Origin: Actinomycetota bacterium
Lineage (GTDB): Bacteria; Actinomycetota; Thermoleophilia; Gaiellales; Gaiellaceae
Assembly: GCA_005884005.1 (NCBI GenBank)
Contig: VAWI01000015.1
Coordinates: 1 to 64,000, forward strand
DNA length: 64,000 bases
Reading direction: 5' to 3'
The notes beneath the pieces were generated by a model, which did not search any database, was not told the origin of the DNA, and was given only the letters and a program-made list of their open reading frames with translations. This document shows positions 22,291 through 37,593 of this stretch, piece by piece (positions within the stretch are counted from its first letter, which is position 1; each line of letters begins with the position of its first letter). The position numbers and the translations under genes were made by a program.

Positions 22291-22354
22291 GGCTGGCAAA
22301 TCGTATCCGCGAGCGGCTCAATACTGCTATTGCGATTTCAAAGGGTTAGGATCG

Positions 22355-22370
22355 CTCGGGTCGACCCGAG
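22355..22370. promoter_or_regulatory. 16-bp perfect palindrome between the divergent coxD and Mo-hydroxylase operons
   Basis: CTCGGGTCGACCCGAG is self-complementary over all 16 bp. It ends 18 nt before the first codon of the FAD-subunit gene and is about 65 nt from coxD, the right place for an operator shared by the hydroxylase operon and its maturation operon. Confidence 0.55.
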
Positions 22371-22388
22371 ACCTCTCGAAGGCGCGAA

Positions 22389-23180
22389 TTGACGAATCTC
22401 ACCAACGTCCTCGTCCCCACCTCGGCAGATGACGCCGCCGCTGCGTTCGGTGACGGATCCGGGGTGACTGTCGTTGCGGGCGGCACGATCGTCATGCCCG
22501 ACATCAAGCTCGGCCGCCTGTGTCCGGAGCGGACGCTCTACCTCGGTCGCGCCGGGCTCGACCGAATCGAGCGCTCCGGCGGGATGTGCCGCATTGGCGC
22601 CGCAACGCCGGTCTCGGCGCTCGTCGATGGCGCGCCCGAGCCGCTGGCGACGTTCGCCGCCCACGTGGGCGACCGCGAAGTGCGCGGCCAGGCGACGATC
22701 GGCGGCAATCTCTGCGCGCCCGCGACCGCGACGTTCTCGCGCGGCGACCTGCAGGCGCCGCTGCTCACGCTGGACGCGCGCATCCGTTCGGCTGGCTCTA
22801 CCGGCGAACGAACCGATTCGATCGAAGACTTCCTCGCGGCCGGCCCCGACGGAAGGCTCGTGCTCGAGATCGAGGTTGATGAGCCGAAGCGTGCCGCAAG
22901 CGCGTCCGTCCGGCGCCCGCACGCACACGCCTACACGATCCTCGCGGTCGCTGCGGCGGAAACGGCGGCCGGAATTCGGGTCGCGATCGCCGGCGCCGGG
23001 CCTCGCGCGGTGCGCGCGACCTCGGTCGAGCAGGCGCTTGCCGACGGAGCATCGCCCGAAGACGCGGGTCAGAAGGCGCTCGACGACGTCGATCCCCAGG
23101 ACGACGCCATTGCCTCGGGCAATTACCGGCGTCAAGTCTTGCCCGCTCTCGTCACCCGGGCGCTGGGAGATCTCTCGTAG
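22389..23180 (+). CDS. Molybdenum hydroxylase FAD-binding (medium) subunit
   Basis: A 263-residue CoxM/NdhF-type FAD subunit that passes electrons from the Fe-S subunit to an acceptor. FAD pyrophosphate contacts are VVAGGTIVMPDIKL near residue 30 and GQATIGGNLCAPATA near residue 100. It is slightly shorter than CoxM (about 285). The start is a TTG at 22389 preceded by GAAGG. It is the first gene of the structural operon, 13 nt before the 2Fe-2S subunit gene. Confidence 0.88.
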   Translation: MTNLTNVLVPTSADDAAAAFGDGSGVTVVAGGTIVMPDIKLGRLCPERTLYLGRAGLDRIERSGGMCRIGAATPVSALVDGAPEPLATFAAHVGDREVRGQATIGGNLCAPATATFSRGDLQAPLLTLDARIRSAGSTGERTDSIEDFLAAGPDGRLVLEIEVDEPKRAASASVRRPHAHAYTILAVAAAETAAGIRVAIAGAGPRAVRATSVEQALADGASPEDAGQKALDDVDPQDDAIASGNYRRQVLPALVTRALGDLS

Positions 23181-23193
23181 AGAAAGGAGTTCG

Positions 23194-23727
23194 ATGCGAC
23201 TGACCGTCAACGGGATCGAGCGCGAGCTTTCGACGCGGCCGCTGGACACGCTCCTGAACGCGCTGCGGGAAGAGCTCGGGATCACGAGCCCGAAGGCCGG
23301 CTGCCAGCAAGGAGGCTGCGGCGCGTGCACGGTCCTGATAGACGGCGAGCCGCGAAGGTCGTGCTTGACACCGCTGGTCGCGGTTGATGGCGCGACGGTG
23401 ACGACGGTCGAGGCGCTCGGGGAGCCAGGGAACCTCTCGCCGGTGCAGGCCGCGTTCTACGAGCAGTACGGGCTCCAGTGCGGCTTCTGCACGCCGGGCT
23501 TCGTCCTCGCGACGACTGCCATGCTCGAGCGGAACGCGAACCCGAGCCGCGAGCAGATCCTCGAGGAGCTCGTGGGGCACGTCTGCCGCTGCACCGGCTA
23601 CGTGAAGATCGTCGCCGCCGTCGAGGCGGCCGCCCGCGGCGACGTCTCCGAGGCCGCCCTCGAAGCCGGCGCGACCGGTCCCAGCCGGCGCGAGCCGGAA
23701 GTCCTCGTCCCAGGGAGCCCCGCATGA
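23194..23727 (+). CDS. Molybdenum hydroxylase 2Fe-2S (small) subunit
   Basis: A 177-residue iron-sulfur subunit. The plant-ferredoxin-type cluster motif is CQQGGCGACTVLIDG and the C-terminal cluster motif is CGFCTPGFVLA followed by CRCTGYVKIV, as in xanthine dehydrogenase-family small subunits. A low-complexity tail follows. A clear AGAAAGGAG ribosome site precedes the ATG at 23194. It ends in ATGA with the next gene. Confidence 0.93.
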   Translation: MRLTVNGIERELSTRPLDTLLNALREELGITSPKAGCQQGGCGACTVLIDGEPRRSCLTPLVAVDGATVTTVEALGEPGNLSPVQAAFYEQYGLQCGFCTPGFVLATTAMLERNANPSREQILEELVGHVCRCTGYVKIVAAVEAAARGDVSEAALEAGATGPSRREPEVLVPGSPA

Positions 23728-25112
23728 AAGCTGTAGGCGCGCGCCTGCCCCGCTACGACGGCGTCGGCCACGTAACGGGCCGCACCCGCTTCGTCGACGA
23801 CGTTCGCATCCCGGGGACGCTGTGGGCGAAGGCCCTTCGCTCACCGCACCCGCACGCCGGAATCAAACGCCTCGACACGAGCAAGGCCGAGAAGCATCCG
23901 GGTGTCCACGCCGTGATCACGCACAAGGACGTCCCGCGAAACGTCTACGGCCACCTCGAGGCGCTCGGCGTCCCCGCTGACGAGCCATTGCTCGCCGACG
24001 ACGACGTCCGTTACAAGGGTCAGCCGATCGCCGTCGTCGCAGCGGAGGACGAGGCGACCGCGCTCGAGGCCGTCGAGTTGATAGAGGTCGAGTTCGAGGA
24101 GCGGGAGCCAGTCTTCGACATCCGCAAGGCCTACGACGCCGACGCGAAGCCGTTCCACCAGTGGGGGCCCGCATTTCCGCACTTCGGTCCCTACGCGAGC
24201 CGCCGCATCCGCAAGGGGGACGTCGACGACGCATTCGAGCGCGCCGACGTGATCGTGCAGGGCGTCTACCGCCCGCAGGCGATCGAGCAGCTGCCGATCG
24301 AGCCGCAGGTCGGGCTCTCGGTGCCGGAACCGGACGGCCGGCTGACGATCTACTCGTGCACGCAGGCGATGTACTTCTCGATGGGCGTCGTCGCCGCCCA
24401 CCTCGAGTGGCCGCTCAACAAGCTGAAGTTCGTCGGCGGCACCGTCGGCGGTGGCTTCGGCGGCAAGGTCGACACCGCGACGGAGACGATCACCGCCCTA
24501 CTCGCGCTGAAGGCCAACCGTCCGGTCAAGTGGCGCTGGACGCGCGAGGAGGAGTTCCTCTGCTCGTCGACCCGGGCGCCGTGGCACATGGAGCTCGCCG
24601 ACGCCGTTACGAGCGACGGCTGGCTGCTCGGCCGGAAGATGATCACGCTCCACGACGCCGGCGCCTACACGCGGTTCTCGTCGTACGGAGTCACGAAGCA
24701 CTCCTTCCACCACACGGGCGCCTACACGATCCCGAACCTGCGCTTCGACGGCTACGTCATCTACACGAACCGCTCGCCGACCTCGGCGATGCGCGGATTC
24801 GGCGTCACATCCGTGTCCTATGCAGTCGAGATCCATATGAACCGCATCGCCGAGACGCTCGGCATCGACCCGCTCGAGCTCCGGCTGAAGAACGCCAACC
24901 GGATCGGCGACCTGACCGCTAACCGCGTCCGGCTCAGCGACCCGTCAACGGTCCCCGTTGTGCTCGCGGCGGCCGACCGGATCGGCTACGAGCTGGGGGC
25001 GGAGTTCAAGCAGATGACGAGCGAGCCGCGCTCGGGCGACCTGCTCCCCGACCACCTACTGACGTCCGTCGCTCGCGACGGCGGCGCTGAGACCGACGGG
25101 AGGGGTGCCTGA
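23724..25112 (+). CDS. Molybdenum hydroxylase large subunit, N-terminal half
   Basis: A 462-residue protein with the a/b-hammerhead domain (residues 10-130: GRTRFVDDVRIPG, LADDDVRYKGQPIAVVAAE) and the first molybdopterin-binding domain (GTVGGGFGGK, TSAMRGFGV). The Arg in MRGFG matches the xanthine-dehydrogenase-type active site. The CO-dehydrogenase form I loop AYxCSFR is absent. The protein stops where single-chain homologues would continue, and a second gene supplies the rest. The 462 + 371 split resembles NdhL/NdhM of nicotinate dehydrogenase. Substrate unknown. Confidence 0.87.
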   Translation: MKAVGARLPRYDGVGHVTGRTRFVDDVRIPGTLWAKALRSPHPHAGIKRLDTSKAEKHPGVHAVITHKDVPRNVYGHLEALGVPADEPLLADDDVRYKGQPIAVVAAEDEATALEAVELIEVEFEEREPVFDIRKAYDADAKPFHQWGPAFPHFGPYASRRIRKGDVDDAFERADVIVQGVYRPQAIEQLPIEPQVGLSVPEPDGRLTIYSCTQAMYFSMGVVAAHLEWPLNKLKFVGGTVGGGFGGKVDTATETITALLALKANRPVKWRWTREEEFLCSSTRAPWHMELADAVTSDGWLLGRKMITLHDAGAYTRFSSYGVTKHSFHHTGAYTIPNLRFDGYVIYTNRSPTSAMRGFGVTSVSYAVEIHMNRIAETLGIDPLELRLKNANRIGDLTANRVRLSDPSTVPVVLAAADRIGYELGAEFKQMTSEPRSGDLLPDHLLTSVARDGGAETDGRGA

Positions 25113-26227
25113 TGGCGAAGCATCGAGGTCGCGGGATCGCGACGATCGAGTACCCGACCGGGATGAATCAGAACGGTGACCCAAGCCAGGCGTGGATCAA
25201 GGTCAAGCCTGATGGGCGTATCGACGTGTTCGCCGGCACGGTCGACATCGGCCAAGGCTCGAAGACGGTGCACACGCAGATCGTCGCCGACACGATCGGC
25301 GTCCCCTACGAGTGGGTGACGATGGACGTCTCGAACACCGACTCCTCGCCGATCTGCACGGGATCGTTTGCCTCGCGCGGCACGTTCATCGGTGGCAACG
25401 CTGTCCGTTTCGCAGCGGAACGGGTGCGCGAGCGGATTCTGGAGATCGCGTCGAAGGAGATGGAGATCGACGCCGCCGACCTCGAGATCGAGGACGGCGA
25501 GGTGGTCGCGAAGGGCGCTCCTGATCGCAAGCTCGGCCTGGCGGACGTCGCAGCGGCCGCGACTTGGACCCACGGCGAACTGCTCACGGGCGCGGGCGCC
25601 GCGTTCAAGCCGTATTCGACGGTCGACGACGACACCGGCGAGGTGGACAGCGAACCGCACTCGGCGATCTCGTATGCGGCCTGCGTCGCGGAGGTCGAGG
25701 TCGACGACGAGACTGGCGAGGTGCGGGTGGACAAGCTCGTCCAGGTCTACGACGTCGGGCGGGCGATCAACCCGACGCTCGTCGAGGGCCAGATCGAGGG
25801 GGGCGCGTTGATGGGCCTCGGACTGGGGCTGCTCGAGAGCTCGTACCCTTACTACCCCTCGGTCGAGCACCGAGGCGAGCAGTTCGGCGCCTACCTCGCG
25901 CCGACGCTCGAGGACCTGCCGGATCTCGACAACGTGATCCTGGAGCACCCCTCCGCGGACGGGCCCTATGGGGCCAAGGCGATCGGCGAGATGGCCAACA
26001 ACGCCCAGCCGCCTGCGATCATGTCCGCAATCCACGACGCGCTCGGCGTCTGGGTCACTGAAGCCCCAGCGACTCCGGAGAAAGTCCTGAACGCGATCCA
26101 GGAACGGAGGGCGCCGCAGCGCGACGGCAAGCGGGTCGTTTACGACGATCAGATCTCGATCGCGGCCGTCTCGGGGAATCGCGGCAAGGGCGGCGACGGA
26201 GAAGGCTTCCTGCTCCCGGATGAGTAG
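25112..26227 (+). CDS. Molybdenum hydroxylase large subunit, C-terminal half
   Basis: A 371-residue protein that carries the second molybdopterin-binding domain: GTVDIGQGSKTVHTQ (contacts to the Mo ligands), GSFASRGTF, the YDVGRAINPTLVEGQIEGG segment and the catalytic Glu in GAKAIGEMANN near residue 294. It begins with an ATG sharing its A with the preceding TGA (TGATG). Both halves are intact with normal codon use, which argues for a genuine two-gene subunit rather than a sequencing frameshift. Confidence 0.87.
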   Translation: MAKHRGRGIATIEYPTGMNQNGDPSQAWIKVKPDGRIDVFAGTVDIGQGSKTVHTQIVADTIGVPYEWVTMDVSNTDSSPICTGSFASRGTFIGGNAVRFAAERVRERILEIASKEMEIDAADLEIEDGEVVAKGAPDRKLGLADVAAAATWTHGELLTGAGAAFKPYSTVDDDTGEVDSEPHSAISYAACVAEVEVDDETGEVRVDKLVQVYDVGRAINPTLVEGQIEGGALMGLGLGLLESSYPYYPSVEHRGEQFGAYLAPTLEDLPDLDNVILEHPSADGPYGAKAIGEMANNAQPPAIMSAIHDALGVWVTEAPATPEKVLNAIQERRAPQRDGKRVVYDDQISIAAVSGNRGKGGDGEGFLLPDE

Positions 26228-26627
26228 CGCGGCGCAGGACGTCTGGCCCTTCGGGACCTGGAATGGGCTCGGCTCGTTCGAGCTGTTTCCAGGTGTCAGG
26301 CTGCACGCGATCGGCGGCGACCAGGTGCTGCTCTGCCGGGTCAGCTATGACGCCGGCAAGTCGGTCGCCCGGCACGCGCACGAGCACACCGAGCAGGTGA
26401 TGGTGATCGTCGACGGCGAGGTCGACGTCACGATTGGCGACGACCGCCGTCACCTGCGCACCGGCGATGTCTGCGTGATGAACCGCGGCGTCGAGCACGA
26501 GCTCTACTCGGAGGACGGCGTCACGTTCTTCGAGGCGCTTGCGCCGGTGCCCCTCGACCACGTGCCAGACCGCGAGCGCGACCTCGTGCTTCGCAAGGAC
26601 GGCGGGTCGCAGCACGTCGAACGCTAG
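26220..26627 (+). CDS. Cupin-domain protein
   Basis: A 135-residue single-cupin protein with the metal motif HAHEHTEQVMVIVDGEV and the second motif GDVCVMNRGVEHELYS. It overlaps the molybdenum hydroxylase gene by 8 nt, so it belongs to that operon. Possible roles are a dioxygenase- or isomerase-like enzyme or a sensor of the hydroxylated product; sequence alone does not decide. Confidence 0.82.
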   Translation: MSSAAQDVWPFGTWNGLGSFELFPGVRLHAIGGDQVLLCRVSYDAGKSVARHAHEHTEQVMVIVDGEVDVTIGDDRRHLRTGDVCVMNRGVEHELYSEDGVTFFEALAPVPLDHVPDRERDLVLRKDGGSQHVER

Positions 26628-29073: not shown

Positions 29074-29730
29074 GTGCCTCTTCCGATCGACAGGCCGAAG
29101 AAGATCGTCTGCGTCGGCCTGAACTACCGCGACCACGCCGAGGAGCAGGGCACGGAGCTGCCCGAGGCGCCGCTGCTGTTCGCGAAGTGGCCGAACACGC
29201 TGATCGGCCCGGGCGAGCCGATCGTGATCCCGCCCATCACGAAGCAGGTCGACTACGAGGCCGAGCTCGGCGTGGTGATCGGCCGACGCGTCCGCGGCAC
29301 CTCAGCGGAGAACGCGCTCGATGCAGTCGCCGGCTACCTCTGCCTGAACGACGTCTCGGCGCGCGACCTGCAGTTCTCGGATGGGCAGTGGGTGCGGGGC
29401 AAGTCGCTCGACACTTTCTGCCCGGTTGGGCCGGCTCTCATCCCCGCAGCCGACGTTCCGGATCCGCAGGCGCTCGCGATTCGCGCGCTTGTTAACGGCG
29501 AGGCGCTGCAGGACTCGAGCACCTCGAACATGATCTTCTCGGTCGCCGAGATCGTCGCGCACACCAGTCAGGCGATCACGCTGGAGCCGGGAGACCTCAT
29601 CGCGACGGGCACTCCGGCCGGCGTGGGCGCGTTCCGCGATCCGCAGGTCTGGCTCCGACCGGGCGACGAGGTGACGATCGAAATCGAAGGCGTGGGGGCC
29701 TTGACGAACCCCGTGCGCGCAGCGGAATAG
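29074..29730 (+). CDS. Fumarylacetoacetate hydrolase-family protein
   Basis: A 218-residue FAH-fold enzyme of the hydrolase/isomerase/decarboxylase type. KIVCVGLNYRDHAEE is the standard start, and the metal ligands lie in VDYEAELGVVIGR (E-x-E) and LNDVSARDLQ. Members act on fumarylpyruvate, oxaloacetate, 2-oxohept-3-enedioate and related ring-cleavage acids. GTG start at 29074, 11 nt after lutC. It fits an operon that breaks down a ring-derived 2-oxo acid. Confidence 0.88.
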   Translation: MPLPIDRPKKIVCVGLNYRDHAEEQGTELPEAPLLFAKWPNTLIGPGEPIVIPPITKQVDYEAELGVVIGRRVRGTSAENALDAVAGYLCLNDVSARDLQFSDGQWVRGKSLDTFCPVGPALIPAADVPDPQALAIRALVNGEALQDSSTSNMIFSVAEIVAHTSQAITLEPGDLIATGTPAGVGAFRDPQVWLRPGDEVTIEIEGVGALTNPVRAAE

Positions 29731-30032: not shown

Positions 30033-30949
30033 CGGGAGCGGAACAACTCGACCGTCTCGCGCACCCCCTGCGCGAGCGGCGTCACCGGCATGGGGAAGCC
30101 GCAGGTCGCGAACTCCTCCGGGAACGGCAGCGCGACGTCGTCGTATCCGATCTGCGCGCCGGGAACTTCCGTCTCGATCGCGGCGACGACCTCGCTCATC
30201 AACATCGTCTCGCCCGAAATGTTGTAGACCGGCGCGCCGTCGGCCGCGGCTCGCGCCGCGTCGACGAACGCGCGCGCGGCATCGGGCGCGTAGTTGAACG
30301 TCGAGCGGCTCGACCAGGCGATCGTGTACGGCTCGCCGCGAACGGCTGCCGCCATGGCGAGCGTCGGGCCGGCTGTCATGCCGGTGTCGCGCCCAGGCCC
30401 GTAGACGATGTACGGGCGGAGGCCGATGCTTGGCAGGCGGTCCTCGGACCAGTAGACACGGGCCGTGCCCTCGTTGGCGAGCTTGTGCACCCCGTAGAGA
30501 GTCGTCGGGTGGCCGACCGCGGACTCGTCCCGCGTCGCGGTGTCGGCATCGACAAGGTCGTAGACCGCGGCCGAACTCGCGTACGCGAGGCCCGCGATAC
30601 GCTCGCGCCGCTGCTTCACCGCCTCGAAGACGTTCGTCGTCCCGACGACGTTGACGAGAGCGCCGCGCGATGGGTCGGCGCGCGCGAGCGGGATCAGCAA
30701 CGCGGCGAGGTGGACGACGTGCGTTACCTCGTGCTCGTCCAGCGAGCGTCCGAGCCCGGCGAGGTCGGTCACGTCTCCGCGAACGCACGTGACGCGTTCG
30801 AGCTCGTCCGGATTCATGATCAGGCGGAGCCGCGAGACGTCGTCCCCGAGGTCGAACGTAGTGACCGAAGCGCCCTCGCGCACGAGCGTACGCACGATCC
30901 AGGCGCCGATGCACCCCAGCGCCCCGGTGACGAGCCAGGACTCGCTCAC
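30029..30949 (-). CDS. NAD-dependent epimerase/dehydratase (extended SDR)
   Basis: A 306-residue extended SDR. The NAD loop is VTGALGCIG, and the catalytic YGVHK (Tyr-x3-Lys) follows SSAAVYD. GLRPYIVYGPGRDTG and NYAPDAARAFVDA are sugar-nucleotide-epimerase-like. It may act on a sugar or uronate rather than a nucleotide sugar, given the aldehyde dehydrogenase and FAH-fold enzyme in the same operon. The GTG start overlaps the aldehyde dehydrogenase stop (GTGA). Confidence 0.85.
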   Translation of the reverse strand: MSESWLVTGALGCIGAWIVRTLVREGASVTTFDLGDDVSRLRLIMNPDELERVTCVRGDVTDLAGLGRSLDEHEVTHVVHLAALLIPLARADPSRGALVNVVGTTNVFEAVKQRRERIAGLAYASSAAVYDLVDADTATRDESAVGHPTTLYGVHKLANEGTARVYWSEDRLPSIGLRPYIVYGPGRDTGMTAGPTLAMAAAVRGEPYTIAWSSRSTFNYAPDAARAFVDAARAAADGAPVYNISGETMLMSEVVAAIETEVPGAQIGYDDVALPFPEEFATCGFPMPVTPLAQGVRETVELFRSR

Positions 30950-32409
30950 ACGTCCTGGTAAACCGTGACGACCTCCGTGTAGAACTCGAGCGCCGCCCGA
31001 CCCTGCTCGTGAGGGCCGAAGCCGGACGCCTTGATGCCGCCGAACGGGACGTGCACCTCGGCGCCGGCCGTCTGGGAGTTGACGTGCAGGAGACCGGCCT
31101 CCGCCTCGTTCGCGAACCGCTGCGCCGCTTCGAGGTTCTGCGTGAAGATGGCCGCGGAGAGGCCGAACTCGACGGCGTTCGCCCGGCGCAGCCCTTCGTC
31201 GAGGTCGCCGATTCGGTAGAGCGACGTCACCGGCCCGAACACCTCCTCGCACGACAGGAACGCGTCGTCGCGGACGCCCTCGAAGACCGTCGGCTCGATC
31301 ACATACCCGGTCTCGTCGGCGCGCCCGCCGCCGGCGATCACCTCGCCGCCTTCGCTGCGACCGCGCTCGATCGCCGCCACGATCTCGTCGAACTGCTTCT
31401 CGTTCACGATCGGGCCGACCTCGGTCTCGGGATCCCCCGGATCGCCCACCTTTCCGCTCGCAATGCGGTCGAGCAGCTTCTTCCGGAACGTGTCGTAGAC
31501 GGAGTCGTGGACGTAGATCCGGCGCGTCGCGGTGCACTTCTGGCCGGCCGACCAGAAGGCTCCGGCATACGCGGCCTCGACGGCGGCGTCCATCTTGGCG
31601 TCCGCGAGGACGATCAGCGGGTTGTGGCCGCCGAGCTCGAGCTGGACCCGCTTGCCGAGCTTCGTCGCCTCGTCCCGCACGGACTGGCCGACTGGCACCG
31701 AGCCGGTGAACGAGATCGCGCGCACGCGCGGATCGCGGACGATTGCGTTGCCCACCTTCGAGCCCGAGCCGGTGAGCACGTTCAGCACGCCGGGGGGCAG
31801 CCCCGCCTCGGCGAGGCACTCGGCCAGGTGCAGTCCCGTGACGGGCGCGTCCGTGGCGAGCTTCAGCACGACCGCGTTGCCGTAGGCGAGAGCAGGCGCC
31901 AGCTTCCAGGCTGGAATCGCTGCCGGGAAGTTCCACGGCGTAATCAGCCCGACTACGCCGAGCGGACGGCGCATGGTGTAGACCGGCCCGCCGGTCATCG
32001 TCTGCTGGGACAGCTCGCCCAGGGGCCGGTAGCCCTCGCCGCCGAAGAAGCGAAGGATCGTGGCTGCGCGCGCAGCCTCCATCCTGGCCTCGCGCAGCGG
32101 CTTTCCCATCTCGCGCGTCATCTCGGACGCGATCTCCTCGACGCGCGTGTCGACGACCTCTGCCGCCTTGACGAGCAGGTTCCCGCGCTGGGGGGCGGGA
32201 GTTGCCGCCCAGCCGGGGAAGGCCTCTCGCGCGGCCGCGACCGCGTCGTCGACGTCGTCGGCGTCGCAGGCCGGCACGTCGGCCACGACCTCGTCCGGTC
32301 GCATCGGGTTCCGCTTCTCGTAGGTCTCGCCGGAGCGGGCGCCACGCCACTCTCCGCCGACGTAGTTGCCGAGCGTAACTCGGGCTGGAGCTTCGACGGT
32401 CTCAGACAT
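30946..32409 (-). CDS. Aldehyde dehydrogenase, 2-oxoglutarate-semialdehyde type
   Basis: A 487-residue ALDH with ITPWNFPAAIP, the cofactor loop SFTGSVPVGQSV, catalytic Glu in LELGGHNPL and catalytic Cys in AGQKCTATRRI. The pattern MTGGPVYTMRRPLGVV and the ending PHEQGRAALEFYTEVVTVY is that of 2,5-dioxovalerate (alpha-ketoglutarate semialdehyde) dehydrogenases. Together with the FAH-fold enzyme it suggests non-phosphorylating sugar acid oxidation to 2-oxoglutarate (inference). AAAGGAG precedes the ATG. Confidence 0.88.
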   Translation of the reverse strand: MSETVEAPARVTLGNYVGGEWRGARSGETYEKRNPMRPDEVVADVPACDADDVDDAVAAAREAFPGWAATPAPQRGNLLVKAAEVVDTRVEEIASEMTREMGKPLREARMEAARAATILRFFGGEGYRPLGELSQQTMTGGPVYTMRRPLGVVGLITPWNFPAAIPAWKLAPALAYGNAVVLKLATDAPVTGLHLAECLAEAGLPPGVLNVLTGSGSKVGNAIVRDPRVRAISFTGSVPVGQSVRDEATKLGKRVQLELGGHNPLIVLADAKMDAAVEAAYAGAFWSAGQKCTATRRIYVHDSVYDTFRKKLLDRIASGKVGDPGDPETEVGPIVNEKQFDEIVAAIERGRSEGGEVIAGGGRADETGYVIEPTVFEGVRDDAFLSCEEVFGPVTSLYRIGDLDEGLRRANAVEFGLSAAIFTQNLEAAQRFANEAEAGLLHVNSQTAGAEVHVPFGGIKASGFGPHEQGRAALEFYTEVVTVYQDV

Positions 32410-33235
32410 TCGTGCTGCTCCTTTCCTTCGGCAGCAGATCGGCCGCTGCGCGAACCGGATTCTCCAAGCTACCGATCCCAGAGACGTCGATCAGGACGCG
32501 CTGGCCGGGCGCGAGCGCGACGTCGTCCGGCGGCACGAGGCCCGTCCCCGTTAGCAGCACTGTTCCCGGGGCGACGGGATTGTCGCGCACCAGCCACGAC
32601 ACGAGCTCGTCGAAGGAGCGCTTCATGCGCGCCGTCGACGTCTTGCCCTCCCACACGACGGCGCCGTCGGCGCCGAAGATGCGGCAATTGATCTCGAACT
32701 CGGGCGGCCACTCGTCGGGCGTCACGACGACGGGGCCAAGCGAGCAGGCGCCCGCGAAGACCTTGGCTTGGGGGAGGTAGAGCGGGTTCGCCCCCTCGAT
32801 GTCGCGCGACGTGACGTCGTTGCCGGCCGTCGCGCCGACGATGCGCCCGCCGCGCCCGAGCACGAGCGCCAGCTCCGGCTCGGGCACAGTCCACGTGCTC
32901 TCCTCGCGCACGCCGATCGGCTCGCCTGGGCCGACCGTGCGGCGGCCGCCGGCGTCCTTGAGGAAGAGCTCCGGCCGGTCGGCGTCGTAGACGAGACTGT
33001 AGACGTCCTGCACCTGCGTCTCCTCGACGCGAGCTTGGCGGCTCCGCTCGTAGGTGACGCCCGCGCACCAGACCTCGGGCGGGTCGAGCGGCAGCGCGAG
33101 CCCCTCGGGAAGCGGCGCATCGCCCGCGGGCGCGCCACAGTCCTCGAGCGCCGCGAGCACGTCGTCGACCGGCTCGAGGCCTGCCTCGCCGAGCCAGCCA
33201 CTCCGACCGTCGGCGGTGCGCACCAGCTTCGCCAT
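32402..33235 (-). CDS. FAH-family protein, probable 2-keto-3-deoxy sugar acid dehydratase
   Basis: A 277-residue FAH-fold protein. VWCAGVTYERSRQAR, metal ligands in VPEPELALVLGRGG and NDVTSRDIEGANPLYLPQAK, and the ending DVSGIGSLENPV resemble 2-keto-3-deoxy-arabinonate/xylonate dehydratases, which make 2-oxoglutarate semialdehyde for the adjacent ALDH. ATG at 33235 fits the family; the upstream open frame is not family-like. It shares one base with the SDR stop (TGATG) and overlaps the ALDH start by 8 nt. Confidence 0.82.
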   Translation of the reverse strand: MAKLVRTADGRSGWLGEAGLEPVDDVLAALEDCGAPAGDAPLPEGLALPLDPPEVWCAGVTYERSRQARVEETQVQDVYSLVYDADRPELFLKDAGGRRTVGPGEPIGVREESTWTVPEPELALVLGRGGRIVGATAGNDVTSRDIEGANPLYLPQAKVFAGACSLGPVVVTPDEWPPEFEINCRIFGADGAVVWEGKTSTARMKRSFDELVSWLVRDNPVAPGTVLLTGTGLVPPDDVALAPGQRVLIDVSGIGSLENPVRAAADLLPKERSSTNV

Positions 33236-33954
33236 CAGTAGACCGCGCGGCCGCCCGAGATGTCGTAGCAGGCGCCGGTCGAGAAGGCCATCTCGTCGCT
33301 GGCCAGCCAGCAGACCAGCGCCGCCACCTCTTCCGGGTTTCCGAGCCGGCCGAGCGGGATCCGCTCGACCATGTAGTCGACGTGCTCCTTGGCGATCCCT
33401 TCCAGAATCGGCGTGTCGATCACCGCAGGCGCGATGCAGTTGACGAGCACGCCGGTACCCGCGAGGTCCTTCCCGATCGACTTCGTGAAGCCGATCACCG
33501 CCGCCTTCGAGCCGGAGTAGGCCGCCGCCTGGGGATTGCCTTCCTTGCCGGCGATGGAGGCAACGTTGACGATCCGGCCGTAGCCGCGCTCGACCATCAC
33601 GCGCGCCGCCGCCCGGCAGAACCAGAAGGTGCCGTGTGCGTTGATCGAGAACACGCGTTCCCATTCCTCGTCGGGGACGTCGAGCGTCCGCAGCGACCGC
33701 CCTGGGACGCCGGCGGAGTTGACGAGCACGTCGAGCCCGCCGAGCTCATCGACGACGCGGTCGACGGCGGCATCGGCGTCGGCCGCCCGTGCGACGTCGC
33801 CCTGGATCTCGAGCACGTCTCCGTTGGCCCGCTGGCGGTCGAACACCGCCACGCGGGCGCCACCGTCGCGAAGCCGCTCGGCGGTCGCCGCCCCGATTCC
33901 GCTGGCGCCGCCGGTCACGAGCGCGACCCGGCCCTCGAAGTCGTAGCGGTTCAC
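33235..33954 (-). CDS. Short-chain dehydrogenase/reductase, sugar type
   Basis: A 239-residue SDR with VTGGASGIG, NSAGVPG, catalytic Ser in NVASIAG and AYSGSKAAV (Tyr-x3-Lys); Asp in VAVFDRQ favours NAD. It probably oxidises an aldose or sugar acid as the entry step of the oxidative route. The start is a GTG at 33954. It is the first gene of a four-gene minus-strand operon, separated by only 25 bp from the divergent diol dehydratase operon. Confidence 0.9.
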   Translation of the reverse strand: MNRYDFEGRVALVTGGASGIGAATAERLRDGGARVAVFDRQRANGDVLEIQGDVARAADADAAVDRVVDELGGLDVLVNSAGVPGRSLRTLDVPDEEWERVFSINAHGTFWFCRAAARVMVERGYGRIVNVASIAGKEGNPQAAAYSGSKAAVIGFTKSIGKDLAGTGVLVNCIAPAVIDTPILEGIAKEHVDYMVERIPLGRLGNPEEVAALVCWLASDEMAFSTGACYDISGGRAVY

Positions 33955-33979: not shown

Positions 33980-34435
33980 ATGGCGTACGCTGACGCTGTG
34001 GAGTTCGACCCGACGCGCGACTACCCCCTCGGTCGCCGCCGACCGGACCTGGTAACGACGCCCTCAGGCCTGCGCCAGGCGGACGTGACGCTTGACGCCC
34101 TGCGTGCCGGGACGGTCGACGGGGACGACGTCCGCGCGACCACGGAGACGATCAAGCGACAGGCTGCCGTGGCCCTCGCGGCGGGGCGGATGCCGCTCGC
34201 CGAGAACCTGCTGCGCGCCGCCGAGCTCGCCGCCGTTCCCGCCGACACGGTGCTCGAGATCTATACAGCGCTGCGCCCGCGCCGCGCTACAGCCGCCGAG
34301 CTGGAGGCGTGGGCTGAGCGGCTCGAACGCGAGCTTGCGGCTCCGCGCATGGCCACGTTCGTCCGGGAGGCGCTCGCGGTCTACGCGCAGCGCGGGCTTC
34401 TGGCCGTCCATGAGCGAAGTCCCGCGCAGGTCTGA
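33980..34435 (+). CDS. Coenzyme B12-dependent diol/glycerol dehydratase small subunit
   Basis: A 151-residue homologue of PduE/DhaB gamma. DYPLGRRRPDLVTTPSG, LTLDALR-type region VTLDALRAGTVDGDDVRAT and the block RMPLAENLLRAAELAAVP ... LEIYTALRPRRAT are diagnostic. The subunit completes the heterotrimer that dehydrates 1,2-diols to aldehydes through an adenosylcobalamin radical. It precedes the large subunit gene, the reverse of the usual pdu order, and overlaps it by 26 nt. Confidence 0.9.
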   Translation: MAYADAVEFDPTRDYPLGRRRPDLVTTPSGLRQADVTLDALRAGTVDGDDVRATTETIKRQAAVALAAGRMPLAENLLRAAELAAVPADTVLEIYTALRPRRATAAELEAWAERLERELAAPRMATFVREALAVYAQRGLLAVHERSPAQV

Positions 34436-36647
34436 GCGCTTCGTCGCGCGCGAGGCGCGCGAGCTCCGCAAGGAGCTGCTCATCTCGCCGTGGCCCGAGC
34501 TCGGGCTCGTCGCATTCGACGGTCCGAACGATCCCGAGCCCGAGCTCGTCGTGGAGGACGGCCGCGTCACACGGATTGACGGGCGCGGGCCCGACGAGTT
34601 CGACGTCATCGACCACTTCCTCGCCCTGCACGGGCTCGACCTCGACGCCGCTTCCGAAGCGGCCGCGCTCACGGACGAGGCGCTCGCGCATCAGCTCGTG
34701 GACGTCGACGTCCCGCGCGACGAGCTCGTTAGGCTGTCCCGCGGGCTGACGCCGGCCAGGCTCGCGCGCGTCGTCTCGATGCTCGACCCGGTCGAGCTGA
34801 TGTTCGCGCTCAAGAAGCTGCGCGCGCGACGGCGGCCCGCCAACCAGGCGCACGTGACGAACCTGAAGGAGAACCCTGCGCTCCTCGCGGCGGACGCGGC
34901 GGAGGCGGCCGCGCGCGGGTTCGCCGAGGTCGAGACGACCGTCGGTGTCGCCCGCTACGCGCCGCTGAACGCGCTCGCGATTCTGGTCGGGTCGCAGAGC
35001 GGCCGCCCGGGCGTGCTCACCCAATGCGCCGTGGAAGAGCGGCGGAACCTTCAGCTCGCGATCCGGGGCCTCGTCACCTACGCCGAGACGCTCTCGGTCT
35101 ACGGCACCGAGCCGGTTTTCATCGACGGGGACGACACGCCCTGGTCGAAGGCGCTGCTCGCAGCTGCGTACGCCTCACGCGGCGTTAAAGTGCGCTTCAC
35201 CTCCGGCGGCGGCTCCGAGGCGCTGATGGGGCATGCCGAGGGAAAGTCGATGCTCTACCTTGAGGCGCGCTGTCTCGCGACGATCCGCGCCGCCGGATCC
35301 CAGGGGGTCCAGAACGGGTCGATCTCCTGCGTGGCGCTGGCGCTCAGCGTCCCCGGCGGGACGCGTGAGATTCTCGCCGAGAATGTGCTCGCGGCCTGGC
35401 TCGACCTCGAGGTCGCATCGGGAAACGACGCGATCGCCTCGCACTCGGAGATCCGCAAGACGGCGAAGCTGATGGGCCAGTTCCTGCCCGGCACCGACTT
35501 CGTCACCTCCGGCTACTCGGTGATGCCGCGGCGCGACAACACCTTCGGCGGCGGCAACTACGACGCGGACGACCTCGACGAGTGGCTGACCGTGCAGCGG
35601 GACTGGCAGGTGGACGGCGGAATCGAGCCTGTCGGCGAAGAGGAAGTCCTGGGGGTTCGGGGGCGTGCGGCGACCGCTGTGCAGGCTGTCTTCTCGGCGT
35701 TCGGATTCCCGGCGATCTCCGACGAGGAGGTCGAGGCGGCGACGCACGGCTCCGACTCGCGCGACCTGCCGGACCGCGATCGCGCCGCCGATGTCGCAGC
35801 GGCCGACCGGATGCTCGCGGACCGCATCTCCGGCCTCGACGTCGCCCTCGCGCTCGCCGACGCGGGCTTCGCGGACGTGGCCGAGGCGGTACTCGGGATG
35901 CAGCGCCAGCGGATCGCGGCGGACTACCTCCAGACCTCGGCGATTATCGCGCCGGATGGGACGGTCGAGGCTGCGGTGAACGACCCGAACGAGTACGCCG
36001 GGCCGGGGACCGGCTACCGGCTCGAGGGCGATCGCTGGGCGCGCCTCCGCTCGCTGCCGCACGAGCTCGACCCCCGTGCGCTCGCCAACGGAGGCACCGA
36101 CGGCGGCCCGCCGCTCCTCGCCGAGCTGGCCCCGGCGGGCCGCGGTGATTCGCCTCGCGAGGTTGTCGTCGCAGTCGGCCCGGCGTTCGGGGACGGCCTG
36201 CGCGAAACGATCAACGGCCTCCGGCACGAGGAGGTGCTCGCCGCGGTCGTCGCGGGCGTCCGCGAGGGCGGCGCCGAGCCTCGGCTCGTCCGGATCCGCC
36301 GTTCGAGCGACGTCGCGTTCATCGCCCACGACGGCGCCCGCCTCTCCGGCTCCGGGGTCGCCGTTGGGCTGCAGTCCAAAGGCACGGCGGTCATCCACCG
36401 CGCCGACCTGCAGCCGCTGGACAACCTGGAGCTGTTCGGGATGGCGCCGCTTTTGACGCTCGCCTCCTACCGCGCCATCGGCGGCAACGCCGCGGGGTAC
36501 GCATTCGGAGAGCCAGTGGGGCCGGTGCCGACGGAGCTCGACAACTTCGCGCGCGCGAAGCTGATCGTGACGACCACGCTGTTGCACGCCCGTGAGACGG
36601 CGGCAATCGTCCCGGACGCCCCTGCGATCGACGTCACGCTCGCCTGA
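34410..36647 (+). CDS. Diol/glycerol dehydratase, fused large and medium subunits
   Basis: A 745-residue fusion. Residues about 1-560 match the catalytic PduC/DhaB large subunit. Active-site residues known from the Klebsiella enzyme are conserved: Gln and His in NQAHVTN, Glu in VETTVGVARYAP, Glu in YGTEPVF, Gln in GVQNGS, Asp in SGNDAI and Ser in FVTSGYS. Residues about 580-745 match the B12-binding medium subunit PduD (VAVGPAFG, SSDVAFIAHDGARLSGSG, LDNLELFGMAPLLTL). No reactivating factor, shell protein or B12 riboswitch is nearby. The substrate may be a sugar-derived diol rather than propanediol. Confidence 0.92.
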   Translation: MSEVPRRSERFVAREARELRKELLISPWPELGLVAFDGPNDPEPELVVEDGRVTRIDGRGPDEFDVIDHFLALHGLDLDAASEAAALTDEALAHQLVDVDVPRDELVRLSRGLTPARLARVVSMLDPVELMFALKKLRARRRPANQAHVTNLKENPALLAADAAEAAARGFAEVETTVGVARYAPLNALAILVGSQSGRPGVLTQCAVEERRNLQLAIRGLVTYAETLSVYGTEPVFIDGDDTPWSKALLAAAYASRGVKVRFTSGGGSEALMGHAEGKSMLYLEARCLATIRAAGSQGVQNGSISCVALALSVPGGTREILAENVLAAWLDLEVASGNDAIASHSEIRKTAKLMGQFLPGTDFVTSGYSVMPRRDNTFGGGNYDADDLDEWLTVQRDWQVDGGIEPVGEEEVLGVRGRAATAVQAVFSAFGFPAISDEEVEAATHGSDSRDLPDRDRAADVAAADRMLADRISGLDVALALADAGFADVAEAVLGMQRQRIAADYLQTSAIIAPDGTVEAAVNDPNEYAGPGTGYRLEGDRWARLRSLPHELDPRALANGGTDGGPPLLAELAPAGRGDSPREVVVAVGPAFGDGLRETINGLRHEEVLAAVVAGVREGGAEPRLVRIRRSSDVAFIAHDGARLSGSGVAVGLQSKGTAVIHRADLQPLDNLELFGMAPLLTLASYRAIGGNAAGYAFGEPVGPVPTELDNFARAKLIVTTTLLHARETAAIVPDAPAIDVTLA

Positions 36648-36648
36648 A

Positions 36649-37593
36649 GTGGAGCGCACGCGCGAGTTCCTCCAGTCGATCGGCCTGCCCGGCGGGGATC
36701 TGCACGAGCTGCCGACCTCGGACAAGCGCTTTCCGGACGGCGCGCAATATCGCGTCGAGATTCCGAGCACCGAAGGCCCACGCGCGCTCGAGGCCGTACT
36801 CGACGAGGCGGAACGGCTCGACGTCCGTGTCCATCGCGTCTCACAGGGAAGCGGCGTCTTCATGCTCTCGGACGCCGAGCTCGACGAGATGGCGAAGCTC
36901 GCCGCCGCCGCGACGGTCGAGGTCAGCCTCTTCGCGCGGCCGAACGCAGGCTGGGACATCTCCGCGCAGACGCGGTCGACCGCCGGCGCGGCGCTCGCGC
37001 CGGCGATCCGCGGCGGCGACCAGCTCGTGTACGCCCTGGAGGACATTCGCCGGGCGGCCGCGCACGGCTTCCGGAGCGTCCTGATCGCGGACCTGGGCCT
37101 GCTCGCGAGCTTCGACGCGATGCGCAAGGCTGGAGAGCTGCCGGCGGAAATGCAGGCCAAGGTCTCGGTCATGCTCCCGGCCGCGAACCCGTCCTCGGCG
37201 CGCGTCCTCGCGGATCTCGGCGCCGACACCCTCAACCTCCCGACCGACCTGTCGCTCGACCAGATCGCCGCCATACGGGCCGCAGTCGACGTGCCGATCG
37301 ACTTCTACGTCGAGGCCCCCGACAACCTCGGCGGGTTCGTGCGTCTCTACGAGGTGCCGGAGATCGTGCGCATCGCTGCGCCGGTGTACGTGAAGTTCGG
37401 CCTGCGCAACGCGCCGGACGTCTATCCGTCAGGCAGTCATCTGGAGGCGACGGTGGTGGCGCTCTCGCGCGAACGAGTCCGTCGCGCCCGCCTCGGGCTG
37501 GAGCTGCTGGAGCGCGAGTTTCCGGAGGCAGTGACGTCGGAGCTCGGCGCCGCAGGCCTCGCCCTTCCGGACGTGCTCACCCGGGCGCGTTAG
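36649..37593 (+). CDS. Conserved hypothetical protein, TIM-barrel-like
   Basis: A 314-residue protein that starts with a GTG one nt after the dehydratase stop. An N-terminal 90-residue region (REFLQSIGLPGGDLHELPTSDKRF, partly quoted) is followed by alternating strands and helices like a TIM barrel: VSLFARPNAGWDIS, VLIADLGLLASFDAM, VSVMLPAANPSSARVLADLGADTLNLP, VDVPIDFYVEAPDNLGG, in short pieces. This is distantly like U32-peptidase or lyase barrels, but no catalytic motif was recognised. Tight coupling to the dehydratase suggests it handles the same substrate or repairs the enzyme. Confidence 0.7.
   Translation: MERTREFLQSIGLPGGDLHELPTSDKRFPDGAQYRVEIPSTEGPRALEAVLDEAERLDVRVHRVSQGSGVFMLSDAELDEMAKLAAAATVEVSLFARPNAGWDISAQTRSTAGAALAPAIRGGDQLVYALEDIRRAAAHGFRSVLIADLGLLASFDAMRKAGELPAEMQAKVSVMLPAANPSSARVLADLGADTLNLPTDLSLDQIAAIRAAVDVPIDFYVEAPDNLGGFVRLYEVPEIVRIAAPVYVKFGLRNAPDVYPSGSHLEATVVALSRERVRRARLGLELLEREFPEAVTSELGAAGLALPDVLTRAR

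Follow-up and report, generated by a model that had tools for sequence, protein, structure and literature searches.

A fused B12-dependent diol dehydratase of Gaiellaceae and its Ala336 relatives: active site, gene context and the missing reactivase

The closest described relatives of the enzyme considered here are PduCDE (1DIO) and DhaB (1IWP) of Klebsiella. They share with the enzyme encoded in the window (the whole stretch of 64,000 nucleotides analysed, from Gaiellaceae contig VAWI01000015.1) the fold, the catalytic and metal residues, most of the B12-contact residues and the three subunit types. Unlike them, the window enzyme has its large (alpha) and medium (beta) subunits fused, carries Ala in place of Gln336 together with changes in nearby loops, and is encoded with the small subunit first; its genome contains neither a DdrAB/DhaFG reactivase nor bacterial microcompartment (BMC) shell genes.

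Fused large-medium genes are known from Mesorhizobium, Mycobacterium and Hyphomicrobium, where reactivation-factor genes were reported to be absent (PMC4777399, 2016); fused glycerol dehydratases of these genera are credited to Liu 2010, as cited in PMC4777399 and PMC7674605. Compared by description only, these enzymes resemble that of the window in the large-medium fusion and in the lack of a reactivator gene. Plasmid searches for the named relatives gave only unfused canonical enzymes among the matches listed. In another actinobacterial family, a complete genome of 6.0 Mb contains a fused enzyme (type B, below) and a divergent reactivase (DDR), so the published absence of a reactivator may partly reflect divergent genes.

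Two further precedents come from the laboratory. The Klebsiella alpha-beta fusion glycerol dehydratases of the PDB 9VIA series, read as man-made, have the same alpha-linker-beta architecture as the window protein; the name of the chain lists two subunits on a single polypeptide, and Gln336 is retained in the aligned 9via_B. An engineered Q336A diol dehydratase (Yamanishi 2012, as described in PMC7674605 and PMC9850924) carries the same change at the same site, whereas Ala336 of the window is natural and is accompanied by a retained Ser301 and changed surrounding loops. The fusion and the missing reactivator gene are already published; the new points are a branch marked by Ala336, the range of phyla in which it occurs and its genome-wide difference from the sister types. 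A sequence-only reading of the window had recognised the fusion, the gene overlap, the conserved catalytic residues and the lack of reactivase and microcompartment genes, but it had overlooked both the Gln336 to Ala change and the fused forms already in print.

Dehydratase genes and active site

The features of the dehydratase locus are as follows.

33980..34435, + strand: small (gamma) subunit gene, 151 aa (PF02287, 137 bits)
34410..36647, + strand: fused large and medium (alpha-beta) diol dehydratase gene, 745 aa, ATG start (PF02286, PF02288)
35325..35327, + strand: codon of Ser306 (Klebsiella Ser301), kept, by alignment
35427..35429, + strand: codon of Asp340 (catalytic Asp335), kept, by alignment
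35430..35432, + strand: codon of Ala341 (Klebsiella Gln336), type-A signature, by alignment
36075..36179, + strand: linker between the large- and medium-subunit domains, residues about 556-590, from the domain limits

Coordinates and Pfam domains bear out that the small-subunit gene comes first and overlaps the 745-aa fusion, the overlap being 26 bp. In the fusion protein PF02286 covers residues 7-555 (813 bits) and PF02288 residues 591-703 (88 bits); both domains, like PF02287 of the small subunit, score far above their cut-offs. The fusion also reaches 812 bits against NF011979 (cut-off 788). The small subunit stays below the NCBIfam equivalogs PduE (108.6 bits, cut-off 282) and DhaB3 (96.9 bits, cut-off 285), and its PDB matches are gamma chains of diol/glycerol dehydratases (E 1e-26 to 1e-25). 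The best solved matches to the fusion are the 9VIA-series alpha-beta glycerol dehydratase of Klebsiella, followed by natural diol dehydratases, and the alpha part is 53-54% identical to the alpha chains of solved diol dehydratases, with the same fold. An AlphaFold model computed with an alignment of 32 sequences has a mean pLDDT of 78 and is of low confidence in stretches around the active-site loops; in Foldseek its target-normalised TM-scores were 0.92 to 1dio_A and 0.95 to 1dio_B. Domains and residues place the protein in the AdoCbl-dependent diol/glycerol dehydratase family, and the observation of an alpha-beta fused B12 diol dehydratase is confirmed.

Mapped on the alpha chain of Klebsiella oxytoca, residues Q141, H143, E170, E221, Q296, D335 and S362 are all kept, and the catalytic and metal residues are conserved in every alignment row where they are readable. 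The earlier statement that all catalytic residues of the Klebsiella enzyme are conserved is therefore correct for these seven, but not for the pocket residue Q336. The canonical signature of PduCDE and DhaB123 combines Ser301 with Gln336; in the window the serine is kept and the glutamine is alanine. Site 336 adjoins the catalytic Asp335, and its alanine is invariant in a 32-row alignment of type-A enzymes.

In the beta chain D112 and T137 are invariant, K135 is Lys or Arg, N150 is found in 87 of 90 rows, and S155 has given way to Gly or Pro in most rows of type A. From the 1DIO structure, we take D112, K135, T137, N150 and S155 to be B12-contact residues. Most contact residues are kept in the window enzyme, which probably uses AdoCbl in vivo. 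Supply of the cofactor is plausible, since other contigs of the assembly carry a cobalamin riboswitch and an ATP:cobalamin adenosyltransferase. Rfam found no cobalamin riboswitch within the window itself, as had been noted before.

Three dehydratase types and their reactivases

The large subunit occurs in 39 of 299 genomes of the class to which the window belongs, in three types. Type A, that of the window's family, is fused, with the small subunit first, Ser301 (Gly or Ala-flanked variants at this site are rare), Ala336 and an FGGGN loop (Phe-Gly-Gly-Gly at Phe374). Type B, found in other families and as a second copy in genome G165, is fused with the small subunit last, and has Asp or Glu at 301, mostly Thr at 336 and an FGPSN-like loop. 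Type C is unfused and has canonical residues, with the small subunit likewise first. Typing was by motif, including rows L048 and L097, which are misplaced in the alignment, and by kinship or score for three fragmentary type-A and several type-B genomes. About 85,000 species genomes were scanned and the best 80 loci typed: 74 were of type A, all with Ala336, and six were canonical unfused enzymes with Q336. The hosts of type A are Gaiellaceae, Acidimicrobiia, Chloroflexota, Acidobacteriota, Latescibacterota, Zixibacteria, Desulfosarcina and one Bacteroidetes MAG. In a FastTree phylogeny from which the diagnostic columns had been removed, each of the three types lies on one side of a branch. 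The window enzyme is fused, carries Ser301 and Ala336, has no DDR and belongs to the single type-A clade.

The gene order has a narrower meaning. Among type-A loci the small subunit comes first only in an actinobacterial subclade, and outside it the small subunit is last wherever it is found beside the fusion. Three unfused canonical diol dehydratases of the same class (L038, L039, L040) have the order small-large-medium, so a leading small subunit is not special to fused forms. The reversed order pointed out in the sequence-only reading is real in the window; it is a trait of one type-A subclade, shared with unfused canonical enzymes, and was rejected as a hallmark of the fused enzyme.

Within type B, loci L062, L064-L068, L056-L058 and L060 have Asp or Glu at the Ser301 site and Thr or Ala at the Gln336 site. 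In these loci a divergent 565-aa reactivase-like ATPase lies beside the small subunit. At L056 and L057 (genomes G288 and G274) two type-B dehydratase genes stand back to back, in divergent orientation, with Asp at site 301 in one and Glu in the other.

The window's assembly (2.7 Mb, 94% complete) contains one large subunit and one medium-subunit domain by whole-genome search. The same assembly was searched for a DDR ATPase and for a BMC shell gene (PF00936), and neither was found; the DdrAB/DhaFG reactivase that accompanies the canonical subgroup is absent from the genome. The absence of reactivating factor and microcompartment genes, previously described for the window alone, thus extends to the whole genome and, for the reactivase, to its relatives. 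With PF08841, in searches that rely on homology and that an unrelated reactivase would escape, none of the 61 genomes that have type A alone, one of them closed, yielded the reactivase ATPase. The ATPase was present in 17 of 18 type-B genomes (15/16 and 2/2) and in 13 of 14 type-C or canonical genomes (3/3, 6/6 and 4/5), that is, in 30 of 32 for both types together; the Fisher p for this contrast ignores that type A is one clade and does not count as independent evidence. The link with reactivase loss may accordingly be a single evolutionary event. The two B/C genomes without a reactivase are 86% and 83% complete, and G165, which carries both type A and type B, has one. Apart from L048, the type-B and type-C dehydratases that were examined have the reactivase gene directly beside them; it lies beside none of the type-A loci examined, the window included. 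A query with the divergent type-B reactivase retrieved its positive controls but had no match in 33 genomes that carry type A alone, the single-contig G009 included.

It could be argued that the reactivase is missing only through incomplete assemblies, as most type-A genomes are MAGs and that of the window is 94% complete. This is scarcely credible and is in practice ruled out by the 0/61 count, which includes the closed G009, against 30/32 for B/C genomes of similar quality, and by the position of the reactivase, which adjoins the dehydratase in nearly all B/C loci and never in type A. The fusion alone was likewise rejected as the cause of the loss, because type B is also fused and keeps its DDR.

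A different possibility is that the enzyme still inactivates and is repaired by an unrelated system (another ASKHA protein or a G-protein chaperone) or replaced by resynthesis. It has been proposed that in bacteria with fused enzymes reactivation may not exist or may follow a different route (PMC4777399), and three type-A genomes do give weak PF08841 matches of 20-26 bits. These matches are scattered and span less than one third of the profile, and we interpret them as ASKHA proteins of a generic kind; moreover, no conserved candidate gene lies beside type-A loci across the phyla. Such repair appears unlikely.

Neighbouring genes and candidate substrates

Conservation was counted among the loci of the window's family "with room" for the partner, every locus where the partner was found being included.

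22350..26227, + strand: Mo hydroxylase operon (FAD, 2Fe-2S and split Mo subunit), conserved partner
26220..26627, + strand: cupin-domain protein (PF07883), conserved partner, 11/11 family loci with room
30946..32409, - strand: aldehyde dehydrogenase, 7/9 family loci
32402..33241, - strand: FAA-hydrolase family protein (PF01557), 7/10 family loci
33235..33954, - strand: SDR-family dehydrogenase (PF13561), divergent, 25 bp from the small-subunit start, 9/10 family loci with room

The Mo-binding subunit is split into ORFs 23478-25112 and 25112-26227, which are kept beside the dehydratase in 11/11 and 10/10 family loci with room; two subunits of the operon find their nearest named matches in glyceraldehyde dehydrogenase beta and gamma. 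Between 26539 and 29730 lie LutA/LutB/LutC-like L-lactate oxidation genes followed by an FAA hydrolase (29074-29730) that comes closest to 2,4-didehydro-3-deoxy-L-rhamnonate hydrolase; together they suggest deoxysugar-acid catabolism. Directly after the fusion, at 36649-37593, is a protein with only a weak match to peptidase family U32/UbiU and with no relative at other family loci.

No relative with room has the U32-like, Gfo/Idh, TIM-barrel or GlcD-like neighbour of the window enzyme. A cyclitol substrate, proposed from the Gfo/Idh and TIM-barrel genes, was consequently discarded, since these are conserved in 0/11 loci. The broader suggestion that the substrate may be a sugar diol relied on the same neighbours, although those that do travel with the dehydratase still suggest oxidative sugar or aldehyde catabolism, which fits an aldehyde product oxidised in the cytosol. 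Outside the window's family the neighbourhoods are diverse, and enolase-superfamily and IlvD/EDD sugar-acid dehydratases recur.

The enzyme may simply be a 1,2-propanediol/glycerol dehydratase, a serious possibility that falls somewhat short of even chances, with deoxysugar catabolism (the FAA hydrolase and LutAB-like genes) yielding 1,2-propanediol for conversion to propionaldehyde. The alpha-chain identity of 53-54% to solved diol dehydratases with the same fold, the retained Ser301, the preference for 1,2-propanediol reported for Q336A alone and the rhamnonate-type FAA hydrolase at 29074-29730 all agree with it, but the genome has no BMC genes, and the FAA hydrolase and Lut-like genes accompany the dehydratase only in some members of the family. 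A sugar-derived diol seems quite improbable as the substrate. Here 2-keto-3-deoxypentonate, with its terminal C4-C5 diol, would be dehydrated to alpha-ketoglutaric semialdehyde and oxidised by the adjoining aldehyde dehydrogenase in an oxidative pentose route. The chemistry from 1,2-diol to aldehyde is suitable, sugar-acid dehydratases of the IlvD/EDD or enolase superfamilies adjoin several type-A loci in other phyla, and the nearest named family of the adjoining enzyme is indeed alpha-ketoglutaric semialdehyde dehydrogenase, although its 556 bits fall below the cut-off of 770. Against this reading, too, the adjoining protein of the FAA-hydrolase family may be the dehydratase that normally takes that step, the aligned pocket positions hold no cationic residue for the carboxylate, and neighbourhoods outside actinobacteria are diverse.

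Probable turnover without a reactivase

Taken as a whole, the best explanation, which we hold to be rather probable, is that type A forms a branch of AdoCbl-dependent diol dehydratases able to sustain turnover with no reactivase. The type-A enzyme would dehydrate a small vicinal diol to the aldehyde by the usual 5′-deoxyadenosyl radical route, and in the window's family either the aldehyde dehydrogenase next door or the adjacent operon resembling Mo aldehyde oxidoreductases would probably oxidise the aldehyde. A DdrAB/PduGH reactivase would be dispensable if the enzyme undergoes suicide inactivation seldom enough. The altered pocket, aided by a medium subunit that does not dissociate, may limit the binding mode that destroys the cofactor; alternatively, the natural substrate may simply not inactivate the enzyme.

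Published mutants bear on this proposal. In the Klebsiella enzyme the substitutions Ser301Ala and Gln336Ala were reported to slow inactivation with glycerol, as was an alpha-beta fusion arising from a mutated alpha stop codon (PMC7674605). Another account credits a 2.7-fold drop in inactivation to S301A and gives Q336A an effect on selectivity, Q336A alone favouring 1,2-propanediol (PMC9850924), and a Lactobacillus reuteri enzyme mutated at the same site showed a negligible change in resistance (PMC5619818). Because the reported effects of Q336A disagree, an intrinsic resistance of type A to inactivation is something we infer.

A more far-reaching version is possible but rather doubtful: a multi-phylum branch would have dropped its repair chaperone through the same pocket change and fusion that engineers later made, and would serve aerobic oxidative sugar catabolism on a substrate new to B12 enzymes.

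Suicide inactivation sets a limit to diol dehydratases, which rely on an ATP-driven reactivase both in cells and in industrial routes to 1,3-propanediol. A natural branch that has no recognisable reactivase and carries a residue change linked to slower inactivation makes life without repair directly testable, and type A supplies many natural enzymes to assay.
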